NCBI GenBank assembly: GCA_019187105.1
Contig: JABAQM010000001.1
Location: 682,001-746,000 of the forward strand
Source: Fimbriimonadaceae bacterium
GTDB taxonomy: Bacteria; Armatimonadota; Fimbriimonadia; Fimbriimonadales; Fimbriimonadaceae
Direction of reading: 5' to 3'
DNA length: 64,000 nt
The notes below the pieces were generated by a model. The model ran no database searches, had not been told where the DNA came from, and saw only the letters and a list, made by a program, of their open reading frames with translations. Shown here in pieces: positions 6,605-46,218 of this stretch; the stretch's first letter is position 1, and every line of letters begins with the position of its first letter. The position numbers and the translations under genes were made by a program.

Positions 6605-8218
6605 GTGGAAGTCCTGACCTCCCAGGTCGATCTGCATGACGACGAGCACCGTACCAATGCCTCGGCGATGGCTGAGGTAATGGCGGATTACCGCTGCCAT
6701 ATCGAGAAAGCGCTCGGCGGCGGTGGACCGGATGCGGTGGAGAAGCACTTGAAACGTGGCAAGCTGCTTGCCCGCGACCGGATCGACGCCCTGCTGGATG
6801 AGGGCTCGGCCTTCCTGGAGTTCAGCACCTTTGCCGCTCACGGCATGTACGGCGATGAGGCGCCTTCTGCCGGAATCGTCACGGGGATCGGTCGCATTCA
6901 TGGCCGGGAGTGCATGGTCGTCGCCAACGATGCGACCGTTAAGGGGGGGACGTACTTCCCGATCACGGTGAAAAAGCACCTCCGAGCCCAGGAAATCGCG
7001 CTAGAAAACCACTTGCCCTGCATCTATCTGGTCGACTCAGGCGGAGCGTTTCTGCCGCTCCAGAGCGAGGTGTTTCCCGACCGCGACCACTTCGGCCGCA
7101 TCTTCTATAACCAGGCCCAGATGTCCGCACAGCGGATACCGCAGATTGCGGCGGTGCTCGGTAGCTGCACAGCGGGTGGAGCGTACGTGCCGGCGATGAG
7201 TGACGAGACGGTAATCGTGAAGGGCCAGGGCACGATCTTCCTTGGCGGCCCGCCCTTGGTGAAAGCGGCGACTGGAGAAGAAGTGACGGCCGAGGAGCTG
7301 GGTGGCGCCGATGTCCACACCCGTCTCAGCGGCGTGGCCGACCATTTCGCCGAGAACGATGCCCATGCGCTCGCAATCGTTCGGAATATCGTCGAGTCCC
7401 TCGGCGAAAACCCCAACCAAAAGCTCTGGGGAGATCCTTCGGCTTCCGAAGATCCGATCTACGATCCCCAGGAGCTCTACGGTCTGGTCCCCGCCGATAC
7501 GAAGCACCCCATGGCCATGCGGGAGGTGCTCGCGCGGATCGTGGACGGTAGCAAGTTCCAGGAGTTCAAGGCAAACTTTGGCAAGACGCTCATCTGCGGA
7601 TTCGCCCGCTTTCACGGCCACTTGGCGGGCGTGCTTGCCAACGACGGCATTCTCTTCAGCGAAAGCGCCCAGAAGGGCGCCCACTTCATCGAACTCTGCT
7701 GCCAGCGTCAGATCCCGCTCGTCTTCGTCCAGAACATCACCGGCTTCATGGTGGGCAAACGGTACGAGAACGAAGGAATCGCCAAGCATGGGGCGAAACT
7801 CGTGACTGCGGTGAGTACGGCGACCGTACCAAAATTCACGGTTATCGTCGGCGGCTCGTACGGCGCGGGCAATTACGGCATGTGCGGTCGAGCCTACGGG
7901 CCTCGCCAACTCTGGATGTGGCCCAACGCACGGATTAGCGTGATGGGAGGCGAACAGGCTGCCAACGTATTGCTGACCGTGAAAATGGACCAGTTGGCGG
8001 TAAGCGGCCAGTCGATGTCGCCCGATGACCAGGCGGCCTTCAAGGCGCCAATCTTGCAGAAATACGGGGATGAGAGCTCGGCCTATTTCTCCAGTGCGAG
8101 ATTGTGGGATGACGGGGTCATCGACCCCGTGGACACCAGACGGGTATTGGCTCTAGGCATAGAGGCAAGTCTGAACGCTGCCCCCGAAGCCCCCCGGTTC
8201 AGCGTCTATCGGATGTAG
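6605..8218 (+). CDS. Acyl-CoA carboxylase carboxyltransferase (beta) subunit
   Basis: A 537-residue biotin-dependent carboxyltransferase of the methylcrotonoyl-/propionyl-CoA carboxylase beta family (crotonase fold), moving CO2 from carboxybiotin to an acyl-CoA. Visible hallmarks are the N-terminal VLTSQVD segment, [18 protein letters not shown], the oxyanion-hole glycine motifs [16 protein letters not shown] and [16 protein letters not shown], and full family length. Segment patterns ([35 protein letters not shown]) look most like the methylcrotonoyl-CoA type, but acyl specificity cannot be read reliably. GTG 6605 is supported because homologous sequence begins right after it. The biotin carboxylase/carrier subunit is not in the window. 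The 3' end overlaps the convergent cyclase gene by 66 bp. Confidence 0.9.
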
Positions 8219-11104
8219 CGCTCGAGTTTCGAGCACCAGTTGTTCCGGCGTCATTTCCGCACCCTCCTGAAGCACGCGTTGGAAGTCGTCGGCAAGGATC
8301 GCTTCGCATCGATCCCGCGCGCTCACCACGAGCATTTCTTGCTCGTAGCTGCTCTTGGCACCAAGCTCGGCGTGCATCTGTTCGCCAAAGCCGAATACGC
8401 GCACCGCCTTCTCGACCTTGCCAAGATGCGTCAGCAAGGTGGCGACCGCATAGATCGCTTCGAGCCGGTTTTCTTCGGCATCGGGATCAAGGGATCGCTC
8501 GAAGGCGGTCAGGAGATAGCGGGAGGCCGCCTCAAGGTCTCCCTTAAGGATTTCAACCATCCCCAAATGGACGCCAACGTAAACGAGGTTCGATTGGTCG
8601 CCCAGGTCCTCGCAAAGCTTCTGGCTTTCCAGCAAGGCCGAGGTCGCGGCGGCGTAATCCTGCTGCCGATGGTGTACGATGCCGAGGTTCATCAAGACAT
8701 AGGCCATGCTGCCGATATTGCCAAGCTGCCTGAAGCTTTCGAGACTCTCGAGATAGAGCGACCGCGCTTTTTCAAGGTCCCCGATCGAGCTGTAAACCAA
8801 TCCCAGATTGCAGAGCGTATCGGACATGCCGGCACGGTCTCCCAGCTGCCTGCGAATCGTCAGACACTCCTCGTAATAGGTCTTCGCCGACTCGATGTCG
8901 CGCATCTCCCAGCAAAGGATGCCGAGGTTGTTGTAGCTGTTTGCAAGTCCAAACTTGTCATGGATGTCTTTCCGAATGGTTAGGCTTCTTTCGTGGAAGG
9001 CCCGTGCCTGTTCGAGCTGTCCGCGATCCACGCAGAGAAGTCCGAGGTTCGAAAGCGAAGAGGCAATGCCTTTTTTATCACCGAGTGATTCCCAAGCAAC
9101 CAGACTCGCCTCGTACCATCGCTCCGCATCGTCCAGGTCACGCTGGCGCCAGGCGAGGATGCCGGCGCCATTGCACGACTTCGCCCATCCGATTGTCTTG
9201 CCGTGGCCGCCGGTTACTCTCAGGGCTTCCTGAAGGAGCCTCCGGCCCTCCTTGAGAAGCCCCCGCATGAACCAGTACCGGCTTAGAGCCCCTGTCATTC
9301 GGAGGAGGGATTCCCCCAACGTGGAGTAAGACAGCCCGGACGTGTTGGATACCGCCCACTCGATCGCGAACCGGAAGTTGTCACGTTCGGCATCCATGCG
9401 GCGCATCCATTCTGCCTGGTGCGGAAGCGTCAGTTCGGTTTCCGCCTCTTCGGCCAGCTTCATGAAGTAATCGAGATGGCGCTGGGCGATGCGGTCCGCC
9501 TCTCCGGCTTCCACGAGCTTCTCGTAACCGTACTCTCGCAGCGATTCCAAAAGCCGGTACCGCTTGTCTGCCCCTGGGAATTCGTCAGCGACGACGAGAG
9601 ACTTGTCGACGAGCCGGGACAAGAGTTCGAACACTTCAAACTGGTCAATAACCTCATCGGAGCAGACGACTTCGGCGCACTCAAGCTGAAATCCGCCCCG
9701 AAAGATCGCGAGCCTGGAGTGAAGCGTCCGTTCCGCATCGGTGAGGAGGTCATATCCCCAGTCGATGACCGCGCGAAGGGTCTGCTGCCTCGGAAGCACG
9801 TCTCGACTTCCACCGGTCAGCAACCGGAAACGGTCGTCGAGGCGAGCAGAAATCTGCTCGGGAGATAGCACCCGGACCCGGGCTGCGGCGAGCTCGATGG
9901 CAAGGGGTATCCCGTCGAGCCGTCGGCAGATCTCGGCGACACTGGGAGCGATCTCATCTGTGAGGAGAAAACGGTGATCGCTCAGGGTCGCTCGCTCGGT
10001 GAACAGCCGTATCGCTTCAAACTTGGCAGCCTCGTCTGCATGCAGGCCATTCCCTTCTGCCGGGATCGTGAGGGACGGCATTCGGTAGGTCGATTCGCCT
10101 TTCAGAGAGAGCGGCTCTCGGCTGGTGCAGATGAACTTAAGGTTGGCCGCGGCGGGAATCAAGTGCTCAACGAGGTCGGCGGCAGCCGAAATCAAATGCT
10201 CGCAGTTGTCCAGGATGATCAGGCAATGCCGGCTCTTAACATGATCGATCAGGGAATCCAGAGTCGACTGCCCCGGCGTTTCGCCGATACCGATGGCGCG
10301 GGCCACGAAATCCTCGACAAGGGCTGCATCGGTGAGGGTGGCAAGCTCGACAAGCCAAACGCCGTCGCGGAACTCGTCCAGGCGGTCTGCGGCGAATTGG
10401 AGGGCCGCCCTCGTCTTGCCACACCCCCCAGAGCCAATGATCGTCAGCAGCCGAGTCCGCTCAAACGTCCGACCCATTTCGGCAAGCTCTGCCTCTCGAC
10501 CCACGAAGGAAGTCGTTTGCGCCGGCAAGTTGTTAGGAACTGAGTCGACCGACTTAAGGGGCTCGAAGTCACGCTGGATCCCATCACGCGCGAGCTGAAA
10601 AAGCTGTTCCGGCGCTTGAAGGTCCTTGAGCCGGTGCATACCGAGGTCGATCAATGAAACGCGGGAATCCAGATCGGGACGCGCGAGCGCGGATGCGGCG
10701 AGAGATACCAGAACCTGCCGGCCATAGGCCAAGGCCCGAATGCGGGCGCAGCGGTTGATCGTGCTACCGAAGAAGTCACCATCGCGCTCGTCGACGGGGC
10801 CACTGTGGATCGCCATGCGGACGTTGATGTGGGTGTGTTCTGGCCAAGGTTCCGTCTGCAGCCGCAATTGCAGTTCCGAGGCGGCAAGGATGGCGGTTGA
10901 AGCCTTGGAGAAGACTGCGAAGAGGCTGTCGCCTTCGCCTTTGCTTCGCACAATACGCCCACCAAACGACTCGATCGTTTGATAAGCCACCTCCTCGTGC
11001 CGCAGGAGAGCCTGACGCATATCATCGGGGTAGAGCTCCCAAAGCTTTGTGCTCCCCTCGATATCCGTCATGAGGAAGGTCAGACTCCCAGAGGTCGGAA
11101 ACAT
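8153..11104 (-). CDS. Class III adenylate/guanylate cyclase - STAND ATPase - TPR protein
   Basis: A 983-residue multidomain signalling protein. Residues 1-170 form a class III cyclase domain, with the first metal Asp in [14 protein letters not shown], the second in [10 protein letters not shown] and the transition-state Asn/Arg in [11 protein letters not shown]-loop ATPase of the STAND/AfsR-like type follows ([11 protein letters not shown], Walker [10 protein letters not shown], Walker B-like [10 protein letters not shown]). The C-terminal 400 residues hold about seven TPR repeats (e.g. [20 protein letters not shown]). It should make cAMP or cGMP under control of ligand or nucleotide binding by the rear half. 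ATG 11104 is chosen because the cyclase domain starts at once; the frame extends upstream without similarity. A TACAAT box lies 10 nt upstream. It is divergent from an HD phosphohydrolase gene. Confidence 0.88.
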
Positions 11105-11199
11105 CGCTAACCGTATTGTATCGGGCCCCACGCTGCAATAGCCCAACGACAGGGTCTCAACTAGACAAAGCCTCCGCGATAACCATAATGAAGGCAGCA

Positions 11200-11883
11200 A
11201 TGGCATCCACGGTTGAGACCAAGGTGGTCACGTTGAAGGACGTAAAGTCGAACGTCATCGTGAAACAACTAATCGACGGAGCAAACGACGTGATGAAGGC
11301 GATGGGTTACACCGAGCATGGCCACCGCCATGTCGGAGTGGTCTCCAGCATCACCAAGTACCTCTTAGAAGCATTGGAGCGACCGCCCCGCGAGGTTGAA
11401 CTCGGTCAGATAGCGGCCTACCTTCACGACATCGGGAATGTGATCAATCGTATCGACCACCCCATTTCTGGGGCGGGACTTTCTTATCAGATTCTCCATG
11501 AAATGGGAATGCCGCCTCTTGAAATCGCTCCTATCTTGGGGGCAATCGGCAACCATGAAGAGCTCGTGGGGTCACCAGTGAGCCTGGTGTCCGCCGTTTT
11601 GATTGTTGCCGACAAGAGCGACGTCCACTTCAGCCGGGTCCAGAACCCGATTTTCGAGACATTCGACATCCACGACCGCGTTAACTACGCCGTCCAGCGC
11701 AGCCGGGTGAACCTTAGGTTGGAGGATCACATCGTTGAGCTCAAGCTCGAAATCGACACGTCGTTCGCGACCGTGATGGAGTACTTCGAGATTTTCCTCA
11801 GCCGCATGGTGATGTGCCGGCGCGCCTGCGACACCTTCGGCTACCGGTTCGCTTTGGAGGTGAACGGAACCTACTTGGAGTAA
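11200..11883 (+). CDS. HD-domain metal-dependent phosphohydrolase
   Basis: A 227-residue HD-superfamily hydrolase. The metal ligands are visible in order: His44 in GHRHVGVV, the His-Asp pair at 76-77 in AYLHDIGN, the His in GNHEE and the Asp in VADKSD. This family hydrolyses phosphate mono- or diesters of nucleotides. An AAGG motif 5 nt upstream favours ATG 11200 over ATG 11188. The gene is divergent from the large cyclase with only 95 bp between the starts, so a shared control region is likely. A role in degrading a cyclic nucleotide or (p)ppGpp-like signal is a guess from context. It is convergent with rplI, with 3 bp between the stop codons. Confidence 0.85.
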   Translation: MASTVETKVVTLKDVKSNVIVKQLIDGANDVMKAMGYTEHGHRHVGVVSSITKYLLEALERPPREVELGQIAAYLHDIGNVINRIDHPISGAGLSYQILHEMGMPPLEIAPILGAIGNHEELVGSPVSLVSAVLIVADKSDVHFSRVQNPIFETFDIHDRVNYAVQRSRVNLRLEDHIVELKLEIDTSFATVMEYFEIFLSRMVMCRRACDTFGYRFALEVNGTYLE

Positions 11884-35302: not shown

Positions 35303-36030
35303 GGGTTGGACCTCGGGGTATAGGTCGGACGCTCCGGCAAAGTCAAATTGACTTCTGCAACCGTGTCCAGGAGGCCGGGCCGCTGTTGAATCAGGGACGT
35401 TAGTTTCGTGAGCTTCTCTTTCATTTGATGGGTCGAACCAAGTACAACAACAGCGCCGTCGGCAAGTCGCAGTTTCATGAGACCGTCCGCGGCAACATCT
35501 AGGGTGACATTTCTGAGCGGCAGCTGCCTGAGATCGCCACAGAGCTCCGCGATTCTTCCAGACTCCCAGGCGGCACTCAACGTTGCCTGGAGATTAAGCG
35601 TGTTGGCAGAAAGAAACACGCGCGGCATACCCTCTGGAGGAATTCCGGGAAACATCTGGCCCGTGCCATCGAGCAAGGTCCCTCGGCGATTTGCCACGAT
35701 CGCGACCGGCATCCGACGCCGCACCTCAAGCCGGCCGCGGCCGAAGATGTTTCGAGAAAAGTCGGCATTATCGACAGAGGGACCCGCCATGGCCAGGGTT
35801 TCTATACCGCGCGGATTGACCTGGGCGGCTGCCTTGCCGTCAAGAGATTGCAGGAGCGTAGTCAAGCGACCCCTGTCTGCGGCGGCCGCACCGCTCACTC
35901 GCACCACGCGGATCGCGGTCAATGGACTCGCAGCCAAGCCGACCGCCGTACAGGCAAAAAACGCGACCCAGAGCCAATTCCCCCAGGCGACCGGTCGTCG
36001 GACCTTCCTCTTCTTACGTGTTGCGGGCAC
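35299..36030 (-). CDS. ftsQ: Cell division protein FtsQ/DivIB
   Basis: A 243-residue bitopic protein: basic N-terminus (RKKRKVRRP), one TM helix (WLWVAFFACTAVGLAA), a POTRA domain beginning PLTAIRVVRVSG and the beta domain with RRRMPVAIVANRRGTLLDGTGQMF. This arrangement is standard for FtsQ, which recruits FtsB and FtsL to the divisome. It overlaps murC-ddl upstream by 17 bp and DUF881 downstream by 4 bp. Confidence 0.85.
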   Translation of the reverse strand: MPATRKKRKVRRPVAWGNWLWVAFFACTAVGLAASPLTAIRVVRVSGAAAADRGRLTTLLQSLDGKAAAQVNPRGIETLAMAGPSVDNADFSRNIFGRGRLEVRRRMPVAIVANRRGTLLDGTGQMFPGIPPEGMPRVFLSANTLNLQATLSAAWESGRIAELCGDLRQLPLRNVTLDVAADGLMKLRLADGAVVVLGSTHQMKEKLTKLTSLIQQRPGLLDTVAEVNLTLPERPTYTPRSNP

Positions 36031-38311
36031 GTCGTTGCAACGCCTCCTCGATCATCCAGACGCACAGGTCGGCGAACCCGATTCCAGCGGCTGCGGCACT
36101 GTTTGGCAGCAGGCTGGTTTCGGTCATACCGGGGATGGTGTTGACCTCCAGGATGACGGGTCGATCGCCGACCACGATCATATCGGTGCGAGTGGCACCG
36201 TTACATCCGAGGAGACGGTGAGCCAAGACCGCATACTCCGAGGCTTTGCGGGCGGCAGACTCTGAGATTCGGGCCGGAATGATCTCCTCCGTCGCCCCGC
36301 GTTCGTACTTCGCTCCGAAGTCGTAGCGGCCGGAGGCAGGGACAATCTCCACGATCGGAAGAGCTCTATCACCAAGAACCGGGACCGAGATCTCCACTCC
36401 CTTCAGCCATGGCTCAATCAACACTTGCTCGTCATACTGAAACGCCTTTGCGATGGCATCGTTAAGATCAGAACGCTTCTCTACGAACGACAACCCGACG
36501 GTGCTGCCTTGCGCATTAGGCTTCACCACAGCAGGACATGGAAGGGCCTTTGGGTCGAAGTGTTCGCCGCGTGCAAGCAGCACGGTATCTGCAGTAGGCA
36601 GTCCGACCTCGTGGAGGCATACCTTGGTACGAGCCTTATCCATCGCGATCGCGCTTGTTTGAATGCCAGAACCGGTGTAGGGGATATTCAGCAGCTCAAA
36701 GAAGCCTTGAATTGCCCCGTCTTCGGCGTGAGTACCATGAACACACAAAAATGCCGCATCGGGCCGGTCCGGCCCCGTGAGGTCGGCGAGCGACTGGCCG
36801 GTCAGAAGGCGCTCGGTAATGTCGTATTTCGTGACCGAGTAGCCCTTGCTTTCCAGAGCTTCGGCGACTGCATTTCCAGACAGGATCGAGATCTCCCGCT
36901 CGGCACTGTCACCGCCAAAAACAACCGCGACCCGCTTACCATTTCGCTCAAGTTCCTGGAGGAAACTTGGAGCGAACGCATCGATGTTTCCCGCTCCCAT
37001 TCCGACGATAACGTCATTTTCTTTAACTAATTCTTTTACTTTTCTCGGCAGAAGATGGCGCGACGGCACATACTGAAGCGGCACCGTGAGCAATTCCGCG
37101 ATTCGGGCGGAGCTGATGCCTGGTATCGGATCCTCGCGGGCAGGGTAGATGTCCGTAAGAACAACCTGGTCTGCCAATGACAGTGCGGCGGCGAACTCGG
37201 GAAGGAAGTCTGCCGTGCGACTATATAGGTGTGGCTGGAAAACCACGACAAGACGCCGATTGGCATAGCGCTCCCGCAAGGCCCGAATGCTCGCCCTGAT
37301 TTCGGTAGGATGGTGTGCATAGTCATCCACAACCGCGATGTTGTCGTCCTTTAAAATCTGTAACCTTCTGGTGGCCCCGCCGAAGTTGGCCAAACCCGCA
37401 CCTGCCTTATCCAAATCCACCTTCAGGAACTCGCAAACGGCCAGGGCGCCTAACGCATTTAACCGATTGTGGAGCCCGTGTAGTTTTAGCGGAGGAATCT
37501 GATCGGCCAGGCTCGACCGGTGGGCAGGCGATAGCCCGTAAGGGATCTCGGCGAATGGCGGATGGTTACGAGTGGGAAGGTCTCGAAGCCTGAGGTCGTT
37601 GACCCCGTCATCGTCGGCGCAAGCGATGAGAGCGCCATTTGCCGGAATCCGGCAGGTGAAATCAAGCATGTGAGACTTGAGGCCCTCCCATGAACCATGA
37701 AAATCGAGGTGATCGGGTTCCAAGTTGGTCAGCAGGACCACGAACGGGTCCAAGTCTCGAAGGCTGTCGTATGCCTCGCAGGCCTCAACGACCACAAACT
37801 CGCCGCTTCCTTCCACCACGCCGCCGGGAAAATCGGCGGATTCCGCTCCGATGACCACCCCAGGCTCTGCACCCGCCGCATGGAGGGCGCTCCCTAGAAG
37901 GCCGGTGGTGGTGGTCTTGCCGTGGGTGCCGGTGACGGCGATCAGCTTCTTGTCGCGAAGGAGCCAACCGAGGAGCTGTGACCGCCGAAACATGCCCAGG
38001 TCCAATTCCTGCGCACGCCTCACTTCGGGGCTTTCACGGAGGTCGATGGCGTCGGTGAGGATGACCGCCTCGCCTTCGGCTGGCGATAGGCTGCTGTGGC
38101 CGATTCCAACCTCAATGCCGGATTCAAGCAGCTTGGTGACCACCGGGGAACCAGTTGCGTCCGTTCCCCGGACCCCAAATCCACGGTTTCGGAGCATGAG
38201 CGCCAAAGGCGCCATCCCAGCTCCCCCAATCCCCACTAGGAAGAAGGCGTTGTACCGATCGAGATGCTCTCGCGGCTCAAAGCGGGACTCGATTTCGGCA
38301 AGGGTTCGCAC
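36014..38311 (-). CDS. murC-ddl: Fused UDP-MurNAc:L-alanine ligase / D-Ala-D-Ala ligase (MurC-Ddl)
   Basis: A 765-residue bifunctional cell-wall enzyme. Residues 1-457 are a full MurC: FFLVGIGGAGMAPLA, ATP loop GTHGKTTTT at 129-137, LTNLEPDHLDFH, HGLHNRLNAL, DDYAHHPTE and YPAREDPIPG. Residues 459-765 are a full Ddl: VVFGGDSAEREISILSG, HGTHAEDGAIQGFFELL, YTGSG, VVKPNAQGSTVGL, the Arg in ATRTDMIV and EVNTIPGMTETSLLP. One chain thus adds L-Ala to UDP-MurNAc and makes the D-Ala-D-Ala dipeptide. MurC-Ddl fusions are known in Chlamydiaceae. The frame is continuous across the junction. GTG start; first gene of the operon. Confidence 0.94.
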   Translation of the reverse strand: MRTLAEIESRFEPREHLDRYNAFFLVGIGGAGMAPLALMLRNRGFGVRGTDATGSPVVTKLLESGIEVGIGHSSLSPAEGEAVILTDAIDLRESPEVRRAQELDLGMFRRSQLLGWLLRDKKLIAVTGTHGKTTTTGLLGSALHAAGAEPGVVIGAESADFPGGVVEGSGEFVVVEACEAYDSLRDLDPFVVLLTNLEPDHLDFHGSWEGLKSHMLDFTCRIPANGALIACADDDGVNDLRLRDLPTRNHPPFAEIPYGLSPAHRSSLADQIPPLKLHGLHNRLNALGALAVCEFLKVDLDKAGAGLANFGGATRRLQILKDDNIAVVDDYAHHPTEIRASIRALRERYANRRLVVVFQPHLYSRTADFLPEFAAALSLADQVVLTDIYPAREDPIPGISSARIAELLTVPLQYVPSRHLLPRKVKELVKENDVIVGMGAGNIDAFAPSFLQELERNGKRVAVVFGGDSAEREISILSGNAVAEALESKGYSVTKYDITERLLTGQSLADLTGPDRPDAAFLCVHGTHAEDGAIQGFFELLNIPYTGSGIQTSAIAMDKARTKVCLHEVGLPTADTVLLARGEHFDPKALPCPAVVKPNAQGSTVGLSFVEKRSDLNDAIAKAFQYDEQVLIEPWLKGVEISVPVLGDRALPIVEIVPASGRYDFGAKYERGATEEIIPARISESAARKASEYAVLAHRLLGCNGATRTDMIVVGDRPVILEVNTIPGMTETSLLPNSAAAAGIGFADLCVWMIEEALQRRARNT

Positions 38312-38733: not shown

Positions 38734-41700
38734 ATGCGATACCCCAGCCTGAGGGCTTTGGCATGGTTATCCGTAACGTCGTTACCGCTTGCGGTATCGG
38801 CGCAGAATCCATTTGCCTTGGACGCCAAGCCAACCGCAGTCGAAAACAATAAGATCGGCGGCCAAACTACCATGGATCTAATTCGTTTAGATCCGTCGGC
38901 ACTTAGCATCCCCCTGCGTTTCGGAGGCATTGTCGAAGGTTCCGAAATGCTGGAAATCGACGGGCGAACGCTCAAGCGGAACGCCGATTACGCGATCGAC
39001 TATGAGGCCGGGGTAATTTTCCTACGCCGAACGCCCAAGCAAGGCTCGTCGCTCCGGGCCGCGTACCGTTACGACGCGAGCAAGAAACAATCCGACGCCA
39101 ACCGGAGCAGCCTGACCGGTTTCGCCGGCCCTGGCGGCATGAAGCTGAACATCGCCCAGGGAACCAGTTTCATCATGGGCATGGGGATGGCGGAGCGGAC
39201 AGCGGACGGCACCGTCCTCAGCTCGAACCTGTACGGGCTGAACAACAACATGAAGATGTTTAATGGCGCGGGCAAGCTTAAGGGGCTGTTCGTCGTCAGC
39301 GAGCGCAACAAGGTCCAGTCGGAAAGCCTCTGGGAAGAAGAGAAGGCAAAGGACCAATCCGTAGAGGATGGCGATTCGCAGGCCTTGGTTCAAGGACTTG
39401 AGACCAACTTCCTTGGGGGCAAGATCCTCAGCAACGTCCAAGACATCCGCGAGAAATTCAACGGATGGGCGGCCTTCAGCGATGCCGGCTACGATGGCAA
39501 GTCCATAGATGAGCTGAAAAGGGAGCGCGGGCTGAAGCGTTACGACTATGCGCTGCAGGACGTCGGCGTGAAGAATTTCAAGCTTCGACAGGGCTTTCGC
39601 GAGGTGTCTGACGGCAACGGCGCCATCCAATGGCGAAACTACGGAGCCACGATCGGTCCACTTTCGTTCGACTGGCAGGCCCAGAAAGTCGACCCCACGT
39701 TTACTCGGTTCAACGATCTCCGCGAAGCCGATAGGCAATGGCTTGGCAAGGAAGCGGGAATGGATCGACAGCAACTTGTCGCCTCGCTCAACCTGGGAAG
39801 CACCAAAGGCGCATTCTCATCCCAGAAGATCGAGAGCCAGGACGGAAGCGGAATATCGCGCCGCTCCGCGAGCCTTGAGCGCCCCGGGTTCCGAGCAAGC
39901 TACAGCGACCAGGCCGTCGAGCGAGAGTTCAATCGTTTTGGCAACTTGCGCGACGCCGACGCCGGCCAACTCGGGAAAGAATCGGGTCTGAATCGCCAGA
40001 GTTTCTCGATCGAGGCCAGTCCCTTGAAGAACCAGAAGCCGCTGAGCTATGCGGAAAGCATGGTCCGGTCGGAAACCGGGGACTTCAAGAGCATCGACGG
40101 TGGGATCGGCCTGTTCGGTATCAGATTGGACCTTGGCGTTCGCAGGGCAGATCCTGGCTTCGCCAACCTAGGCAGCCTAAGTGACGCCGAGATCAACGGC
40201 CATGTCGCCAGCATGACCCGCTTTTACGATGTCAACCCGTTCCAGGTGCGCCCGGATGAACGGAACTTCTTCCTCCAGGGCGCCGGAATCGAGCGCCTCT
40301 TCCAACGAGTCGAATGGAATCCCGCCAAGGCGTACGCATTCTCTTACGACACGCTCCAAGTCAAGGAGAACGACGACAGCATCGGGGTCAGAACCTATCG
40401 CGTGCAGACTCCCTTCTTGCGCGCCAATTACCGGGAGCAAGACACTGGGCTGGCTGTTGACGAATGGGGCAAGCTTCTTGAATACGAGCGCCAGCGGCTA
40501 GGAACCATCGCGGGCCTCGACAAGAGGAACACCGACGTCGCCATCGATCTGCCGAAGGGACAAGGACTCAACTTCTCGAGCATGACCGCCAAGGCGCCGG
40601 TCGGAGACGCGACTCGAATCACAGGCAACATCAAGACTAAGCCGCTTGAATTCAGCTACCAAAGGCGTGCCGTCGATCCAGAGTTCGAGAACGCCAACCA
40701 GCTCGCCGATCCGGAAAAGGATCGTCTCCACCAACTGCGAGGTTGGGACGAGGTGGACTGGGCTGCGCGCCTTCTCGTGTTGCCGGGGCTCAGGATCGAT
40801 GCTCATTGGCAGGATGCCCAGAATATGGGCAACGACCAGCAGCGCGTCCTCCGCAACACGACCGTCACCTACCAGCCAGATAAGAAATCCGAGATCCTCC
40901 TGCACCGCTATCGACAGCGAAACGATGACCCGAACCGGCTAGAGGCAGACTATCAAGTGGATCGGCTGGCCGTTTGCCGCCAATTCGATCGCTGGGGCAC
41001 CTTCCGGTATGTGGAGGAGAAGAAACGGTTCCAGGGCGAATCCCTCACAAATCAACCAAACGCCGAGACCAAGGGCTGGTCGTACGAAACGCAGCTTCTG
41101 AGAGGCACGGCTTTCAAGACTGAAAAGGCCGAAACCAAGTTTGAGAACGGTGACAAGGAGACGATTACCGCTCACACGCTGAGCGCTGAAATCACCAAGA
41201 ACGCCGGCGTGTCGGTGACAGACCTTCAGATCCAGCGAGAGGGCGAGGGTCGAATGGACGAGACCAAACGCAACTATGGCTTCTGGCTCGACTTGGCAAA
41301 GGGCGTTCGCCTTAGCTATGGCTATGTCCGCAACATGACGGAAGGCAAGCCAGGCGAGATGCAGCAGACCACCACGATCACCCCTGGTACCGTCGGCAGC
41401 GTCAAGATCGACGCGGCGTCCTACCAGCACAACCAGTGGGATGAGCGCCGTTACCAGTCGAATGGCGCCTTGCGGGTGGGCACGGCAAAGCCGATCTCGA
41501 TCGGCGATGTGAAGGACTTCCAGTTCTCCTTCGGTACCGATTCTCAGCGGGACAACTGGAACTGGACCAAGGAGAACCGCGATTTTAATGGCGGCTTTAA
41601 GATTTACGGTATCGGTTTAGGCTTCGCCTGGAGGAGCCAATTCCACATTCCCAGCGGCCTGCGGGCGATCGATCGTGTCTGGACGCTGTCCACCGATCAG

Positions 41701-42249
41701 AGCCCCAACAGCAAGCTCGCCGCCAGTATCTATTACAAAGAGCGATCGATGCCGATCGGCGACGATGCCACAGTCAGGAACTTCAACATTATCGCGCGGC
41801 CGATCCGCGGGCTGGAGATCCAACATCAGCTTTCCACCAATCCTGAAGAGGTCCGCAACGACGTGATCTTGGGCTCGATTACCAAAGCTGATCGCTCCAG
41901 TAAGTGGCAGGTGAATTTCACTGGCCAAAAGAACATCCGGTTTGGGCTCAGCTGGGAAGAGCTGAAGAACGACATGACCAACGCGATGACTCGGTTCGGG
42001 GCGATCAACGTGACCCTCTTTGCCGACAGTCCATCACCGCTGCACTTGTTCTACGGCCTGGAACACATTGACACCACCGGCAATGTGCAGCAAACGCAGC
42101 ATCGATATGGCATCCGGTTCGACCAACGTCCCGGTCCCAAGCAGCTGTTCAGCTTCTACGCAAGCAATCTGAACTACCAATACAGCCGACCAGACGACAA
42201 GAAGATTCAGAACTGGACCGTCCGGCTCGAGTACCAGCTCAAGTTCTAG
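38734..42249 (+). CDS. Large predicted outer-membrane/surface protein with 76-residue repeats
   Basis: A 1171-residue protein with a signal peptide (RALAWLSVTSLPLAVSA). The N-terminal domain (about 30-115) has an IDGRTLKRNADYAIDYEAGVIFL pattern. The middle holds five copies of a motif like VDPxFxxFxxLxxADxxxLGKExGLxR, at about residues 319, 395, 470, 567 and 644. The rest is made of alternating strands with aromatic/charged patterning, ending in TVRLEYQLKF with a C-terminal Phe, as in outer-membrane barrels. I do not recognise the family. Start: ATG 38734, with AGGGA 9 nt upstream; a TTG at 38728 is less likely. It stands alone between a divergent small gene and a carbohydrate-related gene. 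Confidence 0.75.
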   Translation: MRYPSLRALAWLSVTSLPLAVSAQNPFALDAKPTAVENNKIGGQTTMDLIRLDPSALSIPLRFGGIVEGSEMLEIDGRTLKRNADYAIDYEAGVIFLRRTPKQGSSLRAAYRYDASKKQSDANRSSLTGFAGPGGMKLNIAQGTSFIMGMGMAERTADGTVLSSNLYGLNNNMKMFNGAGKLKGLFVVSERNKVQSESLWEEEKAKDQSVEDGDSQALVQGLETNFLGGKILSNVQDIREKFNGWAAFSDAGYDGKSIDELKRERGLKRYDYALQDVGVKNFKLRQGFREVSDGNGAIQWRNYGATIGPLSFDWQAQKVDPTFTRFNDLREADRQWLGKEAGMDRQQLVASLNLGSTKGAFSSQKIESQDGSGISRRSASLERPGFRASYSDQAVEREFNRFGNLRDADAGQLGKESGLNRQSFSIEASPLKNQKPLSYAESMVRSETGDFKSIDGGIGLFGIRLDLGVRRADPGFANLGSLSDAEINGHVASMTRFYDVNPFQVRPDERNFFLQGAGIERLFQRVEWNPAKAYAFSYDTLQVKENDDSIGVRTYRVQTPFLRANYREQDTGLAVDEWGKLLEYERQRLGTIAGLDKRNTDVAIDLPKGQGLNFSSMTAKAPVGDATRITGNIKTKPLEFSYQRRAVDPEFENANQLADPEKDRLHQLRGWDEVDWAARLLVLPGLRIDAHWQDAQNMGNDQQRVLRNTTVTYQPDKKSEILLHRYRQRNDDPNRLEADYQVDRLAVCRQFDRWGTFRYVEEKKRFQGESLTNQPNAETKGWSYETQLLRGTAFKTEKAETKFENGDKETITAHTLSAEITKNAGVSVTDLQIQREGEGRMDETKRNYGFWLDLAKGVRLSYGYVRNMTEGKPGEMQQTTTITPGTVGSVKIDAASYQHNQWDERRYQSNGALRVGTAKPISIGDVKDFQFSFGTDSQRDNWNWTKENRDFNGGFKIYGIGLGFAWRSQFHIPSGLRAIDRVWTLSTDQSPNSKLAASIYYKERSMPIGDDATVRNFNIIARPIRGLEIQHQLSTNPEEVRNDVILGSITKADRSSKWQVNFTGQKNIRFGLSWEELKNDMTNAMTRFGAINVTLFADSPSPLHLFYGLEHIDTTGNVQQTQHRYGIRFDQRPGPKQLFSFYASNLNYQYSRPDDKKIQNWTVRLEYQLKF

Positions 42250-42277: not shown

Positions 42278-43174
42278 GTGGATATCGTGCCTTACGGGGG
42301 TTGGAACCGTTGCGCCAGGCTGGAAGCTGGCGGCGTCGTCGCCATCGTGACTCTGGAAGTTGGCCCCAGGGTCATTTTTTATGGATTCGATGGCGGTCCA
42401 AACGAGCTGGTCGAGTATCGAGACCAGATGGGCACGGTTGGCGGCAGCGAGTACAAGAGTTATGGCGGACACAGGCTCTGGGTCGCGCCGGAGGATCCGG
42501 AAACGACGTATGAAGCCGATAACGCCGAAGTCGACTACCGGCGGGAGGACGATTGGCATGTCTTCGAGCCGCCTGTGGGGCAATTTGGTTGGCGAAGGAC
42601 CTTCAGGCTACGCATGGGGGAGTTTCTCGAACTTGAGCACCGAATAGAAAACCACGGCAAGGAAGCGGTCACCCTTGCTCCTTGGTGCCTGACCGTCATG
42701 GCTCCAGGGGGAACCTGCTACTTTCCGCTGCCTCCGTTCAAGCCGCACTCTGAGGCACTATTGCCGGCAGGCCCGTTAGTGCTATGGCACTACACCAACC
42801 CGGCCGACTCCCGTTGGACTTGGGGTAGGCGTCTCGTTCGACTTCGCCACGATCCCGTGCTGGGTCCCCAGAAGGTCGGCGCATTCGTCCACCAAGGCTG
42901 GGCCGCTTATGTCAATCACGGCAACACGTTTCTAAAGACCTTTGAGGCAGAAATTGGTGCTGACTATCCGGACGGTGGGTGCAACTTCGAGACCTTTACG
43001 AGGCAGGACATGCTGGAAGTGGAAACGCTTGGACGCCTCCAGACGCTCCATCCCAATGAAGCAGCGATCCATTCGGAATCATGGCGACTGGTTAGGCAAC
43101 TGCCGCCTTCCGACGAAGATGCCGCTGAGGATTTGTTCGCCGGCTTGGCCGATAGAACACCGTTTTATCGCTAA
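42278..43174 (+). CDS. DUF4380-like, galactose-mutarotase-fold protein
   Basis: A 298-residue cytoplasmic beta-sandwich protein. The pattern YGGWNRCARLEAGGVVAIVTLEVGPRVI, NELVEYRDQMG and YGGHRLWVAPEDPETTYEADN fits DUF4380/aldose-epimerase-like proteins. No signal peptide. It may bind or mutarotate a sugar, but no catalytic His/Glu pair can be assigned with certainty. It converges on a large secreted protein gene; the two stop codons interlock in CTAA at 43171-43174. Confidence 0.7.
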   Translation: MDIVPYGGWNRCARLEAGGVVAIVTLEVGPRVIFYGFDGGPNELVEYRDQMGTVGGSEYKSYGGHRLWVAPEDPETTYEADNAEVDYRREDDWHVFEPPVGQFGWRRTFRLRMGEFLELEHRIENHGKEAVTLAPWCLTVMAPGGTCYFPLPPFKPHSEALLPAGPLVLWHYTNPADSRWTWGRRLVRLRHDPVLGPQKVGAFVHQGWAAYVNHGNTFLKTFEAEIGADYPDGGCNFETFTRQDMLEVETLGRLQTLHPNEAAIHSESWRLVRQLPPSDEDAAEDLFAGLADRTPFYR

Positions 43175-46100
43175 TCCCTGAAGGACACCCGACCGAGGTT
43201 GATGTGGCCCCAAGGGCCTGTTTCATGGTCGACGACCTGCAGTCGCATCGTCTGGCCACGGAACTCGGCCACATCCCAGACGACTTCTTCCATTCGCTCC
43301 TCGTTCTTACCATGCGCCGTTATCACAGGGACGCCCAGATCGTTAAGTAACTCGACCCGAACGTCTTTCCCCGCTCCGCCGCCGATTCGGAGGACCATTT
43401 TTGCCTTCGTCACAAGGAACTCAGGCGATCTGACTTCTCCAACAAAGGTGTCGTCGAAACCGCCTCGGCCATCCTCGCAGGTACCGATGAACGCTGCGGC
43501 ACCCGAATCAAAATCCCGACGCTTTGATCTTGTGGGCACCTCCGGAAAGTTGGCCCTAACGCTCCAGCCAGGCATCCGCCAATCGGCAAAATCAAACGTT
43601 GGATCGACCAAAAGAGTCTTGGTGAAGCGAGCGATCTTTCGGCTTCCGAACATCCCTTCGAAAGCGACTGACTTCGGAACATTGGCAATGGGAAGCTTGG
43701 CGGTGAATCCTTTCGGTCCGAGCGTCGCCGGCAATGAATTCTTCCCGATCATGAATTGACCGCTCAGTGCGGTTCCCGCCGCGGTTGACGTGAAGCCGGG
43801 GATGGCGATCAAGACGACATCGTTTCCCTCGACCTCCATGGCGATATCCCGGATTTCCGCCGGCAACTGGGGCTCGACCCGAGTCCTCTCGGACCCTAAG
43901 AACGACTTGACCGTTAGCCGCTGGGCCCCGGTCCATGCTGCAGGAAAGCTCCACATGGTGGCTTCAATGGTGGTCGCCTTTGGGTCGAGCGATCGGACGC
44001 CGTCGATACCCACCGACCAGCCTGCTTGGTCATGGACGAAGACATCGCCGTAACGATCGAGAATATAGGCGGCTGAGGTCATCGTACTTCCCTCCCCCCA
44101 ATCGAACCCGGTACGCCCGTTCTGGCTGTCCCAGCCACTGTGGCCGCAGTTCTCGGGCTCAAGCGCGAACGGATAGTTGGGGTTTGGATAGAGCCCGTTG
44201 GCGATGTGGAGCGGGTGGTTGATGAGAGTAATGCCGGCGCGGGTTGCGGCCACGCCGCGCTCGAACCAATCTCTCCGGCCAAACTGAGCTCCGAAGTCGC
44301 AGAGGGTTGCCCCAAACTGGGCTTGGCGCGCATCCAAGTATTCGCCGTCGGAATTTTGGACACTGAATCCGCCAAAGGTATAAGCGACGTTGCGGTAGGA
44401 GATGTTCCAGGTCGCCTGGTACATGTTCATCACGTCGAGCGCTTGGAATGCGTAGGGAAGAAGATCCCGCGATCCGCCCTGGTTGACATAGACCCGAATC
44501 GCTTCAGCAGACCATTGCATACAAAGCGTGTTTTGGGGAGGGCAGAGCGTGTGGGGATCGTGCATCGCCTCGTCGTCGATCTTCCCGTTCCGCTGTAGGC
44601 ACGTCTTGGGAGAACACGAAAAAAATGTCTCGAAGTCGTAATACCGGTTCTGGGGGATCACATTCTTGACCAGGAACTGGATGGCCTTGCCGGCCGCCTC
44701 AAAGTACTGCTTTTCTTTGGTAAAGCCATAGAGCTCCGCGAAGAACCAGGCGGGCAGTGCGGTCTGGGCGCTGGCGTCGAGTATAGAGACCACCTTGTGA
44801 TCCTTGGTCAGCCAACTGGGAATTGCCCCATCTGCTCGCTGAAACGACAGCATGCAGTCCGCCATCGCTTTCGCATAGGCTAGAGCATCATCCTTTCGAG
44901 GACAGTCCGGAAAATCCTGGATGAACCGGAGGAGCCAGTAGCCTTTCCAAGCCATGCTGGGAAGGTCGTAATAACAATCCGGCGACGGCTTGATGAGGCA
45001 ACCGATCCAGGCCTTCTTGAACGAATCGTAGGTCGTCGGGCAGGCCCCCTTGTCAAGGGGAGCGGCAAGGGCGAGGTTCAGCATCTTAGCGCCCCTGAGC
45101 TTCAGATCAGGCGCCGAGGTCCGTCGACCCCAGGCGTAAATCCCATAGGCCGATCGCAGGTTGTTAAACCAGCATTGCCAGCTGACCCAGCCGTTGGTAT
45201 AGCCCCATCCCGCAGGAACGCCGCCGCACTCGTAATCTCCAATCTTGTGTTCGAACCAGCCGATTTGGGTATCGCCTGCCTTTTCCTTGAACGCGGCGGC
45301 AAAGCACAGCTTGGCCGCATTATTGAAGGGCATGACCTGGGGCAGGACGCGATCGAAGAATCTCCGACCGTCACGATCCCAGAGACGTTGAGCGACTTTG
45401 CTGGTTGCGTCTTCCCCGCTTCCGGCATGGATTTCATAATCGAGTCGCAATTCGGCAGGTACTTGCCGTGTCAGGGATGGGTCGGTAACGTAGCTCACGT
45501 GGCCATCGAGCTTGTGATCGCAAAGGCCGTAGCCCATCAAAGTCGCGTCCACAACGCCATTCATTGCATCGAGTTCGAGGATCGCCGGAATCGGGCGGTT
45601 CTTTGCCAGGGAGTCGGTTGAAGGAATAACGGCCGCCCAAACGCTATCCCGCTCCGCGATGACGGCGGGGGACCGGAAAAAGTGGTCGCCGATAACATGT
45701 CGCGGACTGGGCCTAAGTCCGGGCGCAAAGGTCCGTGTGGGTCGTTTTCCGCTCCCGTTTGGGATAAAGGCGTAGTTGTCGACAAGGTAGTGGATTCGGC
45801 TCCAATTCTGAGGGTGACGAGCGATCAAAGTTACGTCGAGCCGATCTTGCTCGGCATTGAAAGCAACGGTCTTCTCAATCGACCAGTCGCCGAGTTTGCC
45901 GCTGAGTTTGAACTTGGGAACCGTCGGATGGGCGGCAATCTCCGCTTTGGTAAAGTGCCAGTTGGGAGCGTCAGCGTAAAGCCCGGGAGCCCCCAACGAA
46001 AGGGCATTGGAGACTTCGTCCGGGTTGAGCTTCTTTACCTTGCTGTGGCCCGGTGAAGCCATTACCAGCTTCATCTTGCCCTGGCTGTCACGGATATACA

Positions 46101-46218
46101 CCTCTTCGTAGTGGAGGCCGCCCTCGCGGACCACTCGATAACCGATCGACTTTCCGAAGTGCTGCAAACCCGGTGCTCCCTGGACCGAAATCAACGTAGC
46201 AAGGACGATGCCCGTCAT
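43171..46218 (-). CDS. Large secreted protein, alpha/alpha-barrel glycosidase-like
   Basis: A 1015-residue exported protein with a short signal peptide (MTGIVLATLISVQGAPG). The first 250 residues are beta-rich. The middle (about 290-760) shows repeated helical hairpins with aromatic/acidic clusters (YECGGVPAGWGYTNGWVSWQCWFN, LPSMAWKGYWLLRFIQDF, PQNTLCMQWSAEAIR), like six-hairpin glycosidases or lyases. The C-terminal 150 residues form a jelly-roll-like module ending GPWGHINLGRVSFRD, a pattern frequent in carbohydrate-active enzymes. I do not recognise a specific family, and the catalytic residues are not assigned. Upstream it shares an 84-bp divergent region with the M28 peptidase gene. Confidence 0.65.
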   Translation of the reverse strand: MTGIVLATLISVQGAPGLQHFGKSIGYRVVREGGLHYEEVYIRDSQGKMKLVMASPGHSKVKKLNPDEVSNALSLGAPGLYADAPNWHFTKAEIAAHPTVPKFKLSGKLGDWSIEKTVAFNAEQDRLDVTLIARHPQNWSRIHYLVDNYAFIPNGSGKRPTRTFAPGLRPSPRHVIGDHFFRSPAVIAERDSVWAAVIPSTDSLAKNRPIPAILELDAMNGVVDATLMGYGLCDHKLDGHVSYVTDPSLTRQVPAELRLDYEIHAGSGEDATSKVAQRLWDRDGRRFFDRVLPQVMPFNNAAKLCFAAAFKEKAGDTQIGWFEHKIGDYECGGVPAGWGYTNGWVSWQCWFNNLRSAYGIYAWGRRTSAPDLKLRGAKMLNLALAAPLDKGACPTTYDSFKKAWIGCLIKPSPDCYYDLPSMAWKGYWLLRFIQDFPDCPRKDDALAYAKAMADCMLSFQRADGAIPSWLTKDHKVVSILDASAQTALPAWFFAELYGFTKEKQYFEAAGKAIQFLVKNVIPQNRYYDFETFFSCSPKTCLQRNGKIDDEAMHDPHTLCPPQNTLCMQWSAEAIRVYVNQGGSRDLLPYAFQALDVMNMYQATWNISYRNVAYTFGGFSVQNSDGEYLDARQAQFGATLCDFGAQFGRRDWFERGVAATRAGITLINHPLHIANGLYPNPNYPFALEPENCGHSGWDSQNGRTGFDWGEGSTMTSAAYILDRYGDVFVHDQAGWSVGIDGVRSLDPKATTIEATMWSFPAAWTGAQRLTVKSFLGSERTRVEPQLPAEIRDIAMEVEGNDVVLIAIPGFTSTAAGTALSGQFMIGKNSLPATLGPKGFTAKLPIANVPKSVAFEGMFGSRKIARFTKTLLVDPTFDFADWRMPGWSVRANFPEVPTRSKRRDFDSGAAAFIGTCEDGRGGFDDTFVGEVRSPEFLVTKAKMVLRIGGGAGKDVRVELLNDLGVPVITAHGKNEERMEEVVWDVAEFRGQTMRLQVVDHETGPWGHINLGRVSFRD

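Follow-up and report, generated by a model that had tools for sequence, protein, structure and literature searches.

The window analysed here is a 64,000-nucleotide stretch of Fimbriimonadaceae DNA from a genome of 3.3 Mb, and its forward strand carries the gene for the 1171-residue protein examined in this report (Table 1). Divergent from this gene lies a cell-division cluster that includes a 765-residue fusion of MurC and D-Ala-D-Ala ligase (36014-38311, minus strand). Directly 3' of the gene and on the same strand is a 298-residue protein without a Pfam family (42278-43174), which follows the gene in many relatives too and whose cluster is represented in 17 loci; a 1015-residue protein, also without a Pfam family, comes next (43171-46218, minus strand). 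Neighbours found in relatives comprise an oxidoreductase-like gene, the 298-residue protein and cell-division genes; they vary among relatives, and no clear functional operon was seen.

Table 1. Features of the gene and its product, with positions in the window
Feature	Position	Strand	Basis
Gene for the 1171-residue protein	38734..42249	+	open frame; ATG start, stop codon included
Probable signal peptide, residues 1-23	38734..38802	+	translation read directly
Small N-terminal beta domain, residues 44-115	38863..39078	+	TIGR04189 matches, DUF2460-like signal, model strands
Predicted barrel wall, 54 antiparallel strands, residues 144-1170	39163..42243	+	AlphaFold2, two orthologs
Unit c0, residues 215-292; motif loop 239-266	39376..39609	+	hhalign 64-98% vs other units; unit HMM 2e-11
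Unit c1, residues 297-372; motif loop 320-342	39622..39849	+	hhalign; unit HMM E 3e-21
Unit c2, residues 373-448; motif loop 396-419	39850..40077	+	hhalign; unit HMM E 3e-22
Unit c3, residues 452-545; longer loop 473-518	40087..40368	+	hhalign; unit HMM E 3e-4
Unit c4, residues 548-622; motif loop 572-595	40375..40599	+	hhalign; unit HMM E 5e-16
Unit c5, residues 624-700; motif loop 648-670	40603..40833	+	hhalign; unit HMM E 1e-17
C-terminal half of the predicted wall, residues 671-1171, without the motif, end YQLxF	40744..42246	+	strands in both models

The gene product and its tandem units

Read by eye, the translation opens with a basic start and a hydrophobic core leading to a site between ...SLPLAVSA and QNPF, and the first 23 residues are probably a signal peptide. 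The protein ends in ...EYQLKF; a C-terminal Phe is found in 23 of 29 relatives and the ending YQLxF is conserved. Both the signal-peptide-like start and the final Phe had been pointed out in a first-pass annotation of this DNA, and both are there in the translation. The small beta domain that follows the signal peptide, which we place in the periplasm by inference, corresponds to positions of about 597-650 in the SprA profile TIGR04189; of 39 orthologs, 12 match this profile, the best with an E of 4e-7. A weak DUF2460-like signal was also detected in this domain in 18 of the 39 orthologs, and in the window protein DUF2460 (PF09343) scored 15.6 bits (E 0.011), below its gathering threshold of 30.4 bits.

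Residues 215-700 consist of six tandem units of ~76 residues each, designated c0 to c5. The annotation had described five such repeats, with motif copies at residues of about 319, 395, 470, 567 and 644. These copies are all present and the repeats and their length are confirmed, but the count was one short: c0, the first in order, had been missed, and its motif lies at residues of about 236-269 (QDIREKFNGWAAFSDAGYDGKSIDELKRERGLKR). The motif consensus is VDxxFxRFxxLxExDRxxLxxExGLxR. When the units were compared profile to profile using the 39 orthologs, 14 of the 15 pairs reached 92-99.7% probability and the first-to-last pair 64%, while as a control pairs with any of four other stretches of the same protein gave at most 9.5%. 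The homologous span in these comparisons was ~58-73 residues per unit, which indicates that what is repeated is the entire strand-motif-strand unit and not the motif alone. The profile search with the repeats that had been proposed as a check gave a clear result, a unit HMM picking out all six copies in the window protein, with E from 3e-22 to 3e-4, and 195 shuffled sequences giving E 0.32 at best. Since this HMM derives from these very proteins, with five of their six copies as input, a model made from c1 only provides a stronger test; it recovered c2, whose nearest unit in sequence is c1, from 35 of the 39 orthologs, and the remaining copies from a minority of them.

The predicted wall

AlphaFold2 was run separately on the window protein, with an alignment of 26 natural sequences, and on an ortholog 28% identical to it, although the alignments of the two runs hold largely the same sequences. 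Mean pLDDT was 83.5 for the window protein and 85.0 for the ortholog, and pTM was 0.48 in both cases, so that the global shape is uncertain. Both models show the N-terminal beta domain and then the same continuous run of 54 antiparallel strands, mostly of 9-15 residues; a further short strand precedes the 54. In the models each repeat unit consists of four strands (a double hairpin), and its motif folds as a short helical hairpin that links the second strand to the third. The six units cover only about strands 4-27 of the ~54, and the motif loops, which come after strands 5, 9, 13, 17, 21 and 25, therefore all lie on one face. Turns on the opposite face are short (median 3 vs 5, p = 0.002; p = 0.04 when the motif loops are left out). 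Apart from the motif loops, connections are of at most 9 residues, with two exceptions (19 and 17 residues) that both lie away from mid-chain. Since the number of strands is even, both ends of the wall fall on the face opposite the motifs. As a rule the C-terminal strand of an outer-membrane barrel ends on the periplasmic face, and by this convention the helical hairpins, being opposite the C-terminus, would be extracellular. The pattern of strands, the placing of the loops on one face and the fold of outer-membrane type are predicted features, and the size of 54 strands likewise rests on prediction.

The putative signal peptide, the C-terminal Phe, the loop asymmetry and the fold matches together indicate an outer-membrane barrel. 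For both models the best Foldseek matches were SprA (first), LptD, SlpA and TonB-dependent receptors. ApoB100 belts ranked high as well, which suggests that being a long amphipathic sheet is enough to score. Sequence-profile searches of the PDB with the repeat unit and with the whole protein gave nothing meaningful, and a library of viral structures yielded weak, unconvincing matches only. Hydrophobic alternation over the strands averaged 1.62, compared with 1.21 (SD 0.12, maximum 1.69) in 2000 permutations; it was thus above nearly all of them, and many individual strands alternate weakly. The last strand alternates strongly (p = 0.006), and in many strands the side that would face the lipid is only weakly hydrophobic. 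Covariation was calculated from 107 sequences, in which neighbouring strands are coupled (p about 1e-22); strands 1 and 54 gave no sign of pairing (14th percentile at the best setting), at a power such that only 62% of true neighbours stand out.

The annotation had envisaged an outer-membrane barrel whose hairpins each carry the same extracellular or periplasmic loop module, and this interpretation is partly supported. The models contain no clearly soluble fold, and the motifs appear in them as like helical hairpins on a single face, in support of a barrel at the outer membrane with the same loop module repeated along it. The module is predicted, however, on every second hairpin rather than on each, and along only the first part of the wall, and of the two sides offered the extracellular is favoured over the periplasmic.

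Family, distribution and unit number

The annotation knew of no named family for the motif, and this view holds, as the database check revealed no characterised family covering the protein, and neither the window protein nor its orthologs matched any Pfam or NCBIfam family at threshold. Matches were present in 57 of 61 genomes searched (own genome included), nearly always as a single copy and mostly at full length, the full-length ones being 26-45% identical. In a search of the phylum, 16 of the 45 families of Armatimonadota had strong matches, with E of about 1e-30 or lower. The search also returned weaker ones (E about 1e-4 to 1e-15) that probably represent the N-terminal domain alone, since the window's own genome has such a paralog. 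Eighteen homologs from outside the genus set have 1029-1278 residues and align along most of their length. Against genome contigs a single-protein query found nothing, and an alignment-based query found 29 loci, nearly all of them Armatimonadetes or Fimbriimonadales. In the order Fimbriimonadales the protein is near-universal. It is missing from some fairly complete genomes that have Omp85, and since these lineages retain Omp85 an outer membrane does not depend on the protein, which is common, not indispensable. For the same reason we rejected its presence as a marker of possessing an outer membrane. Two small, nearly complete genomes of the same family (G029 and G158, genus g30, 1.5 Mb) are among those that have Omp85 and no copy of the gene.

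The proteins of Fimbriimonadales have six units, the weak c3 being split or below threshold in a few, while several homologs of another family have five units and one homolog has four. When these were scored against six position-specific profiles, most five-unit proteins proved to consist of c0, one c1/c2-like unit, c3, c4 and c5, and the four-unit protein to lack both c1 and c2; for one five-unit protein, L108, the assignment was less clear-cut. Units therefore seem to have been gained or lost at one place and by whole double hairpins. Franklin et al. 2018 (PMC6340704) treat outer-membrane barrels as hairpin-repeat proteins and discuss their growth by duplication of hairpins and double hairpins. 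The variation by whole units provides sequence evidence for this mechanism. Growth through hairpin and double-hairpin duplication is common to both cases; in the present family, unlike those considered there, six consecutive repeats are still recognisable in sequence and their number varies among homologs.

Proposed assembly and its alternatives

The genome is that of an LPS diderm and encodes BamA, TamB, LpxC and LptF/G. We propose that the protein is exported and inserted by BAM as an unusually large outer-membrane beta-barrel. A small SprA-type periplasmic domain would be followed along the chain by a continuous antiparallel wall of ~54 strands, of which strands ~4-27 would have arisen through tandem duplication of the four-strand double-hairpin unit, each unit contributing a short helical hairpin to the extracellular rim. 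The wall would close on itself or on a partner into a channel roughly 10 nm wide, a width given by standard barrel geometry for n = 54. Six helical hairpins, together with any partner, would cap this channel, which like the SprA translocon would be a conduit for bulky cargo. We consider this account as a whole only slightly less probable than an even chance. That the chain forms one closed 54-strand barrel of ~10 nm capped by the hairpin rim, with relatives of ~46, 50 or 54 strands through gain and loss of four-strand units, we hold more tentatively, and somewhat below even. New here are a sixth unit, the recognition of the unit as a double hairpin, the wall of 54 predicted strands, the whole-unit variation and the SprA-type N-terminal domain.

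SprA/Sov, the type IX translocon of Bacteroidota (TIGR04189, PF14349; PDB 6h3i, 8gl6), was the top Foldseek match of both models and shares with the window protein the small N-terminal beta domain and a very large single-chain wall. The window protein is about half as long as SprA, with ~54 predicted strands as against the 36 of SprA, and differs from it also in its tandem double-hairpin units with helical hairpins. By membership tests the protein is not a SprA: TIGR04189, whose curated whole-protein cut-off is 200 bits, does not match the window protein, the best of the orthologs scanned singly reached 25.4 bits over about 50 residues only, and SprA_N (PF14349) was found neither in the window protein nor among the 39 orthologs. 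The sorting tail of type IX cargo (TIGR04183) was absent from the protein's own genome and gave a few borderline matches in relatives, and none of the gene neighbours points to transport. Type IX secretion was therefore rejected despite the SprA-like domain and fold. Because of this domain and the fold similarity a SprA-like conduit is nevertheless the most natural guess at function, and we regard cargo transport itself as unlikely. Elsewhere in the genome an 870-residue barrel-like protein comes directly after a csaB-like gene (L052:5794-8406, plus strand; contig C1, about 2,390,800-2,393,400); it carries a SprA-type domain (E 8e-11) and may be another outer-membrane protein with no family assigned.

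The main rival to a conduit is a structural role, in which the protein would be an outer-membrane scaffold of S-layer type, like Deinococcus SlpA or OmpM, with a helical rim that organises the surface. SlpA, of the S-layer deinoxanthin-binding complex, is also a large outer-membrane barrel. Its chains are among the fold matches, one ortholog has a weak SlpA_C match (E 2e-4), and wide conservation without operon partners would suit a bulk surface protein. However, the Pfam search for SLH, the domain of tethering barrels such as SlpA and OmpM, was negative for the window protein and its 39 orthologs, and no other wall-binding domain is present in the protein. The N-terminal domain resembles SprA, unlike an SLH-coiled-coil connector, and the protein further departs from SlpA in its helical-loop repeat units and its larger number of predicted strands. 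We judge a scaffold unlikely, to about the same degree as cargo transport.

Somewhat less probable is a chain that folds into two barrels, a repeat-built one of ~24-28 strands followed by one of ~26-28, each about the size of LptD or a TonB-dependent receptor. The low pTM and the restriction of the motif to the first half would fit this arrangement. VIA-align 2, like Foldseek, matched outer-membrane barrels, with Z scores of up to 16.8 (BtuB, Cir) over about 320 residues; each match spans one 22-strand-sized stretch at a time, which would fit two barrels as well. The rmsd of about 8-19 A is what a much flatter wall would give, as though known barrels were too narrow to accommodate it. The matched stretch shifts, however, from residues 560-1004 to 767-1118 between the two models, as a continuous sheet predicts, and there is no linker between the halves, the 19- and 17-residue connections lying away from the middle.

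Least probable, and in our view improbable, is an open periplasmic or lipid-carrying sheet (TamB, ApoB or AsmA-like) in place of a membrane barrel, which the high-ranking ApoB100 belts, the weakly hydrophobic strands and the lack of a covariation signal between the two ends of the wall would allow, but which is opposed by the aromatic C-terminal strand, the turn and loop asymmetry with helical loops all on one face, the alternating strands, the preponderance of barrels among the fold matches and a TamB already encoded in the genome.

LptD, the LPS translocon of 26 strands, is likewise a large outer-membrane barrel and a recurrent fold match. The window protein has no LptD domain, and the genome has a separate candidate adjoining LptF/G, a 764-residue OstA-type protein with an OstA domain and a barrel-like part (L182:1906-4200, minus strand), which probably accounts for the LptD role. 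The LptD barrel domain PF04453 misses this candidate and was found neither in the window protein nor anywhere in the genome, the E. coli control being positive. Replacement of LptD by the window protein was rejected, since LpxC, LptF/G and the OstA-type protein beside LptF/G are present despite the lack of PF04453.

If the proposed single barrel is correct, it would have half again as many strands as any known single-chain barrel. The widest of these is SprA, with 36 strands, according to a 2023 review (PMC10418385), and a conserved family of ~54 strands would lift that limit. Such a size would raise the questions of how BAM inserts so large a wall and what plugs so wide a pore. The natural series of unit numbers would be a direct test bed for barrel growth by double-hairpin duplication, and the family would offer a way into the outer membrane of Armatimonadota, which has been little studied.

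Other large proteins were noted in passing. The window encodes one that combines nucleotide cyclase, AAA and TPR domains (8153-11206, minus strand), and a large protein elsewhere (L184:4962-7886, minus strand) has a layout that looks similar by eye. Close to the latter, and at a second locus, are three secreted-looking proteins, two of them in tandem, whose N-terminal parts are nearly identical (L184:1156-4847 and L052:10151-11665, both minus strand); their C-termini resemble phage tail-spike chaperone domains.
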